64,000 bases of DNA from assembly GCF_002283365.1 (NCBI RefSeq), contig NZ_MQWD01000001.1, positions 5,948-69,947 on the forward strand, read 5' to 3'. The DNA is from Rubrivirga marina. GTDB taxonomy: Bacteria; Bacteroidota; Rhodothermia; Rhodothermales; Rubricoccaceae. Position numbers and translations under genes: made by a program. The notes under the pieces were generated by a model. It worked only from the letters and a program-made list of their open reading frames with translations, made no database searches and was not told the origin of the DNA. Below, one piece after another: positions 41,853 to 41,986 of this stretch (position 1 is its first letter; each line of letters begins with the position of its first letter).

Positions 41853-41886
41853 AAAAACCCCCTCCCGGCCGGGCCAGGAGGGGGTT
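41853..41886 (-). terminator. Attenuator terminator of the met operon
   Basis: Minus strand: AACCCCCTCC pairs with GGAGGGGGTT (10 bp, loop of 11), then TTTTT, 46 bases before the metY ATG. Its 5' arm overlaps CTCCTGGCC (41872-41880), which is perfectly complementary over 9 bases to GGCCAGGAG (41933-41941) in the leader peptide frame. Confidence 0.9.
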
Positions 41887-41908
41887 GCGAAGGGGGCTCG
41901 TCCGGTGT

Positions 41909-41986
41909 CTACCGGCGCCCGTGGCGCGACCGCTCCTGGCCTGTGTGGGCCATACAGCACATAATCATCATCCCCATGCAGCGCAT
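41909..41986 (-). CDS. metL-leader: Methionine/cysteine-rich leader peptide of the met operon
   Basis: A 25-codon frame, ATG 41986 to TAG 41909, beginning MRCMGMMIMCCMAHT: six Met and three Cys among the first twelve residues. The RNA can form three exclusive helices: TGGCC/GGCCA around CACACA at codons 12-16 (1:2), GGCCAGGAG with CTCCTGGCC (2:3 antiterminator), or the U-tract terminator (3:4). A ribosome stalled on the Met/Cys codons would block 1:2, allow 2:3 and so read through into metY. This is the classical attenuator layout. I could not identify the promoter. The name is descriptive only. Confidence 0.8.
   Translation of the reverse strand: MRCMGMMIMCCMAHTGQERSRHGRR

Follow-up and report, generated by a model that had tools for sequence, protein, structure and literature searches.

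A putative Met/Cys leader peptide attenuator ahead of metY in Rubrivirga marina, at the position of the SAM-I riboswitch

Introduction

In textbooks, methionine genes are the standard illustration of SAM riboswitches, T-boxes and MetJ. In front of metY, the first gene of an operon in Rubrivirga marina, a first-pass annotation of the DNA studied here (the window, a stretch of 64 kb) had described a classical attenuator for sulfur amino acids. From the comparisons and RNA folding reported below, we consider it very probable that the operon metY-tRNA(Cys)-metX-hom is controlled by a trp-type attenuator which reads charged tRNA-Met and tRNA-Cys, and that this device has replaced the SAM-I riboswitch.

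The leader reading frame

Read directly from the letters, the frame starting at ATG 41986 on the reverse strand is MRCMGMMIMCCMAHTGQERSRHGRR, with a TAG stop at 41911-41909, and the six Met and three Cys codons which the first-pass annotation had counted among its first twelve are all present. The start itself had to be moved, since GTGACCCGCTC at GTG 42025 is kept in five of the six loci compared below and the sixth (L092) has ATG there. GTG 42025 is most likely the leader start, judging by this conservation, and gives 38 codons:

41909..42025, reverse strand: leader peptide reading frame, 38 codons, GTG start, MTRSSHIITAPAAMRCMGMMIMCCMAHTGQERSRHGRR (conserved start, codon counts)
41951..41986, reverse strand: regulatory Met/Cys codon run, codons 14-25 (6 Met, 3 Cys; direct reading)

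The Met/Cys run (codons 14-25) spells M R C M G M M I M C C M and ends 13 codons ahead of the stop. The leader, with nine Met+Cys, was the only frame of at most 70 codons with at least six Met+Cys per 12 codons in all six frames of the window, and no frame with at least six in 12 was found at 24 control loci in the vicinity of cysH and metH. Because Met and Cys account for only 50 of the 2284 codons of the six neighbouring genes, nine of twelve has a probability of about 2e-13 per stretch of 12 codons against this background. The leader is confirmed as a real feature of the locus.

Helices and folding of the leader RNA

From the last Met codon onwards the leader carries the following elements:

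41948..41952, reverse strand: region 1 (TGGCC), overlapping the last Met codon; pairs with GGCCA 41941-41937 in a weak hairpin
41933..41941, reverse strand: region 2 (GGCCAGGAG), 5' strand of the antiterminator
41902..41915, reverse strand: small hairpin CCGGT-AGAC-ACCGG, containing the leader stop codon
41872..41880, reverse strand: region 3 (CTCCTGGCC), 3' strand of the antiterminator and 5' arm of the terminator
41853..41886, reverse strand: intrinsic terminator, 14-15-bp stem followed by TTTTT, dG -28.4 kcal/mol

Regions 2 and 3 form the perfect 9-bp antiterminator that had been proposed, GGCCAGGAG at 41941-41933 with CTCCTGGCC at 41880-41872, which is mutually exclusive with the terminator. 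The latter, described at first as a 10-bp stem with TTTTT, does possess its T-run (41857-41853), but the stem AACCCCCTCCTGGCC/GGCCGGGAGGGGGTT comprises 14-15 pairs with one mismatch. The hairpin around the stop codon is possibly a pause hairpin; a similar one is seen in L006. The whole leader has a folding z-score of -2.5. A sigma-70 promoter scan found nothing, the sigma-70 consensus being uninformative for this phylum. An Rfam scan of the window returned two tRNAs and nothing else, with no match to the T-box covariance model.

RNA truncated after region 3 was folded with the ribosome modelled as a mask reaching up to 14 nt past the codon; the resulting probabilities are equilibrium values, and in the cell 1:2 forms first. 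The proposed 1:2 hairpin TGGCC/GGCCA is there in its letters but proved weak, with P(1:2) = 0.08 against P(2:3) = 0.91 in the window without a ribosome. The corresponding 1:2 probabilities are 0.07 in L006, 0.14 in L008 and 0.76 in L007; a stable protector hairpin is clear only in L007, and in the window, where it has 5 bp, 2:3 outcompetes it. With the ribosome stalled at M20-C24 region 1 is covered or unpaired and P(2:3) is 0.99, while at M25 the ribosome begins to cover region 2 and P(2:3) is 0.77; at the leader stop codon region 2 is already behind it. Folding with and without ribosome masking, a check suggested in the first-pass annotation, speaks for the model in that stalling favours 2:3, and against it in that the unmasked 1:2 hairpin is weak. 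On these folding results an untranslated leader might terminate poorly. It may be speculated that a weak 1:2 hairpin could avoid shut-off of the operon under Met shortage, which also slows initiation.

Conservation of the leader in Rubricoccaceae and a sister family

MetY of the window is 96% identical to that of the closest named record, Rubrivirga sp. JAAXJP010000032.1. A Met/Cys leader was found at all six distinct metY loci (the window, L006, L007, L008, L009 and L092) from Rubrivirga-like Rubricoccaceae and one sister family. Besides the window these belong to the groups G007/L006/L010, G006/L007, G005/L008/L011 and G004/L009 of the family and G041/L092 of the sister family, and their leaders, in the order G007, G006, G005, G004, G041, are MTRSTYILTAPAAMCCMGMIMCCMADTGQERTRHGRR, MTRSSHIIAPAAMRCMGMIMCMARSGQERSRLGRR, MTRSLSISIIRPASADAIRCMAMCMMMMPTGRTGVHAVPR, MTRSASVLRTSHVAMCMAMMMCGMARPGPEAARTARP and MSTFAPSNTFLRAAAMQCKGMCMPCRGMEGDA. 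All six leaders hold 6-9 Met+Cys in 12 codons and are followed by a terminator 22-31 nt past the stop, and the leader is kept across the loci despite in-frame indels. The loss of Met/Cys codons in relatives with the same gene, which had been named as a point against the attenuator, is not observed. Since leader and spacing are conserved but the more distant upstream DNA varies (L008 carries a SAM-I there), the terminator is unlikely to be that of the upstream gene.

The antiterminator was compared with single base pairs assigned by eye. GGCCAGGAG/CTCCTGGCC is identical in the window and L006. L007 has CTTCTGGCC, with a G-U in 2:3, and a C-G to U-A replacement in the terminator, its 3' arm being changed to match; L008 has GGCAGGA/TCCTGCC, a matched shortening of both strands by one base, and L092 has TGGAGGGG/CCCCTCCA, with one A-U to U-A replacement. 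The covariation expected for the helices is thus found as compensatory changes in the antiterminator of L007, L008 and L092, but L009 has one mismatch there; within this close group of six distinct sequences the covariation amounts to a few events. Compared with dinucleotide shuffles of the leader, in which the terminator and the leader segment are treated as picked after inspection of the window, the 2:3 pairing has p = 0.011 in the window, 0.006 in L006, 0.002 in L007, 0.009 in L008, 0.006 in L092 and 0.15 in L009. The combined value is 2e-6 over five loci, L006 being left out as nearly identical to the window. An initial test with poorly delimited hairpins (p = 0.04 for the window) was replaced by this one, which uses trimmed terminators. 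The kept Met/Cys codons and the compensatory changes in the antiterminator support the original reading of the locus as a classical attenuator for sulfur amino acids.

The operon and its tRNA-Cys

Behind the leader lie four genes:

40484..41806, reverse strand: metY, O-acetylhomoserine sulfhydrylase, first gene of the operon (TIGR01326, 678 bits against a cut-off of 495)
40328..40401, reverse strand: tRNA-Cys (GCA) in the gap between metY and metX; a second tRNA-Cys gene was found elsewhere in the genome
39177..40319, reverse strand: metX, homoserine O-acetyltransferase, with its ATG 9 nt past the tRNA-Cys
38058..39143, reverse strand: homoserine dehydrogenase (332 bits; best match to the homoserine dehydrogenase part of bifunctional models)

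No terminator-like sites were found from metY to the end of the homoserine dehydrogenase gene. The intergenic tRNA-Cys is present in five of the six leader lineages (window, L006, L007, L009 and L092; absent in L008), and because of this position between metY and metX the attenuator may control a tRNA that it reads itself. The notion that it is the only tRNA-Cys of the genome was rejected, a second copy being found at G000:C1:289354. G006 has a second tRNA-Cys about 470 nt upstream of metY (L007 3283-3354). The genome of the window (G000) also holds two PAPS-reductase (cysH-like) matches of equal score (G000:C1:1346852-1347529 and 3838592-3839269), possibly a recent duplication; no similar leaders were found before cysH (PF01507) in the loci of the family.

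Replacement of the SAM-I riboswitch

The SAM riboswitch is, as the first-pass annotation had supposed, the usual device at this gene within the order: SAM-I lies within 700 nt upstream at 70 of 76 close metY loci. It is missing from G038 (L141), in whose upstream DNA no leader was seen by eye, and from five leader loci (G000, G007, G006, G004 and G041). SAM-I (RF00162) has no match in the window or in the whole genome of the window. Since five of the six leader loci are without SAM-I while 69 of the 70 close metY loci in the rest of the order have it, the riboswitch seems to have given way to the leader attenuator in this lineage. In G005 (L008/L011) both are present in tandem on a single contig (public record DUBD01000127.1), first SAM-I (75 bits, with its own terminator) and then the leader. 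The simplest reading of the distribution, made from occurrence rather than from a tree, is that the leader was gained behind SAM-I and that SAM-I was lost afterwards. SAM-I is found at the same gene, in the same position and in the same order of bacteria as the metY leader, but it senses SAM directly and has no reading frame. Cases in which a leader peptide in one lineage stands in for a T-box or riboswitch of another are known (PMC2965389).

Among 15 metY loci of Bacteroidota chosen for a Cys-rich reading frame, 14 have SAM-I with the ATG of the frame 7-13 nt later (L037, L051, L053, L057, L059, L062, L067, L072, L075, L078, L082, L085, L088 and L089). These frames have 31-47 codons and most end in a run of Cys codons; the SAM-I aptamer may there control whether a poly-Cys leader is translated, so that two sensors would be nested.

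Leaders at metY in other phyla

A survey of the 80 closest named metY loci found a Met/Cys leader with an intrinsic terminator 14-27 nt past the stop in records of Acidimicrobiia, Actinomycetes, Acidobacteria, Armatimonadetes and Proteobacteria; the taxon names are taken from the records, which are mostly MAGs, and a few of these may be mis-binned. In a record of Gemmatimonadetes (L042) leader and terminator were recognised by eye, the terminator routine having missed the latter. The loci with such leaders are L013, L014, L016-L019, L023, L025, L026, L029, L033, L034, L036, L042-L048, L052, L055, L066, L076 and L080, and most of the leaders carry an intrinsic terminator. In the antiterminator test L023 (0.001), L048 (0.001), L066 (0.008) and L029 (0.011) are individually significant and many others are not (0.1-0.5); the combined p is 3e-5 for a non-Rhodothermia subset picked by hand. 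In 18 aligned Acidimicrobiia-like loci CGG/CCG and CAG/CTG mostly co-occur, with L029 and L080 as exceptions. Rfam gave no family match apart from tRNAs in those of the loci that were scanned. The sequences of these leaders are unlike those of Rubricoccaceae, and the two sets are likely convergent.

Proposed mechanism and alternative readings

In cells the leader would be translated, and the fate of the transcript would depend on where the ribosome stands. With charged tRNA-Met or tRNA-Cys in short supply, the ribosome would stall in MGMMIMCCM and mask region 1; region 2 would then pair with region 3, the terminator would be blocked and the operon transcribed. When both charged tRNAs are ample, the ribosome would travel across region 2 as far as the stop codon; regions 3 and 4 would pair and transcription would stop ahead of metY. 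This model presupposes coupling of transcription and translation in this phylum. That a shortage of either amino acid would induce the operon, as had been suggested from the mixed codons, is drawn from the geometry of the codons.

It is possible, if rather unlikely, that the attenuator answers in practice to one amino acid, Met or Cys, and that the other codons are passengers. The operon makes homocysteine, which is en route to Met, and in L008 Met occupies all four codons closest to region 2, with Cys one codon further. However, all six loci have retained both kinds of codon ahead of region 2, Cys at a distance of 15-21 nt and Met at 12-18 nt, and mixtures of Met and Cys recur at metY of other phyla. 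The share of TGT among Cys codons, 5/16 in the leaders against 1/16 in neighbouring genes (Fisher p = 0.09), points in the same direction.

That the peptide acts through Rho or translational control instead of the intrinsic terminator, as proposed for the poly-Cys leader peptides which precede mycobacterial cys operons and are without terminators (Seliverstov 2005, PMC1262725), is improbable. The weak 1:2 hairpin would fit it, but each of the six leaders is followed by a strong intrinsic terminator with a T-run, to whose 5' arm region 2, within the reading frame, is complementary. Mycobacterial leaders are likewise short frames with Cys codons upstream of genes for sulfur amino acids, but their Cys run adjoins the stop, whereas the metY leader has mixed Met/Cys codons followed by a full antiterminator and terminator; with a run ending well before the stop and a terminator present, it is not of the mycobacterial type. 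Finally, a chance reading frame ahead of a constitutive terminator or that of the upstream gene is extremely improbable, for although GC-rich DNA is rich in reading frames and hairpins (three terminator-like sites in 8 kb against 2.5 expected), the frame is the sole one of its kind in the window, has no counterpart at the 24 control loci, and is conserved in 6/6 loci with in-frame indels and compensatory changes, which contradicts chance.

Relation to known systems

The attenuator reading two charged tRNAs, which we prefer, belongs to a known type of mechanism. In the classical leader attenuators (trp, his, thr, ilv and leu) there is likewise a run of end-product codons, alternative antiterminator and terminator helices and an intrinsic terminator before the first gene. 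The metY leader differs from them in that it would read Met and Cys together and in its weak 1:2 hairpin; its stop codon is located about 22 nt beyond region 2, whereas that of the trp leader lies inside the 1:2 hairpin.

Other leaders of sulfur amino acid genes share parts of this design. Poly-Cys leader peptides of mycobacterial cys operons are also the subject of Canestrari 2020 (cited in PMC13236596), and the 2005 survey detected no conserved RNA structures upstream of actinobacterial methionine operons (PMC1262725). In Streptomyces lividans the metL leader peptide of metNIQ has Met and Cys near its end (MSTTSDRTPATEATTTPGARCMCRRMCAF), like the metY leader; it differs in preceding a methionine importer and in having no typical intrinsic terminator, and its authors read it as Met/Thr (PMC8079986). 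The Cys-codon leader uORFC-8-2 of Rhodobacterales, located before cysS, shares an upstream reading frame and an intrinsic terminator with the metY leader, but it has Cys only, is alphaproteobacterial and controls cysteinyl-tRNA synthetase (PMC8632094). The literature searched, in which most subscription journals were missing, yielded no leader attenuator of metY that mixes Met and Cys codons. While the mechanism is known, the Met+Cys specificity, the swap with SAM-I, the tandem intermediate and the breadth over several phyla appear to be new.

Conclusions

We are inclined to think, though with some reserve, that Met+Cys leader attenuators at metY are an uncatalogued device present in several phyla, and that in Rubricoccaceae such a leader has replaced SAM-I, with a tandem intermediate in one genome, so that the operon has gone from sensing SAM to sensing the charging of two tRNAs. 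If true, this would be a concrete case of one RNA sensor exchanged for another, with the leader at the position of SAM-I and a genome that has both, and it makes testable whether a single leader integrates two amino acids.
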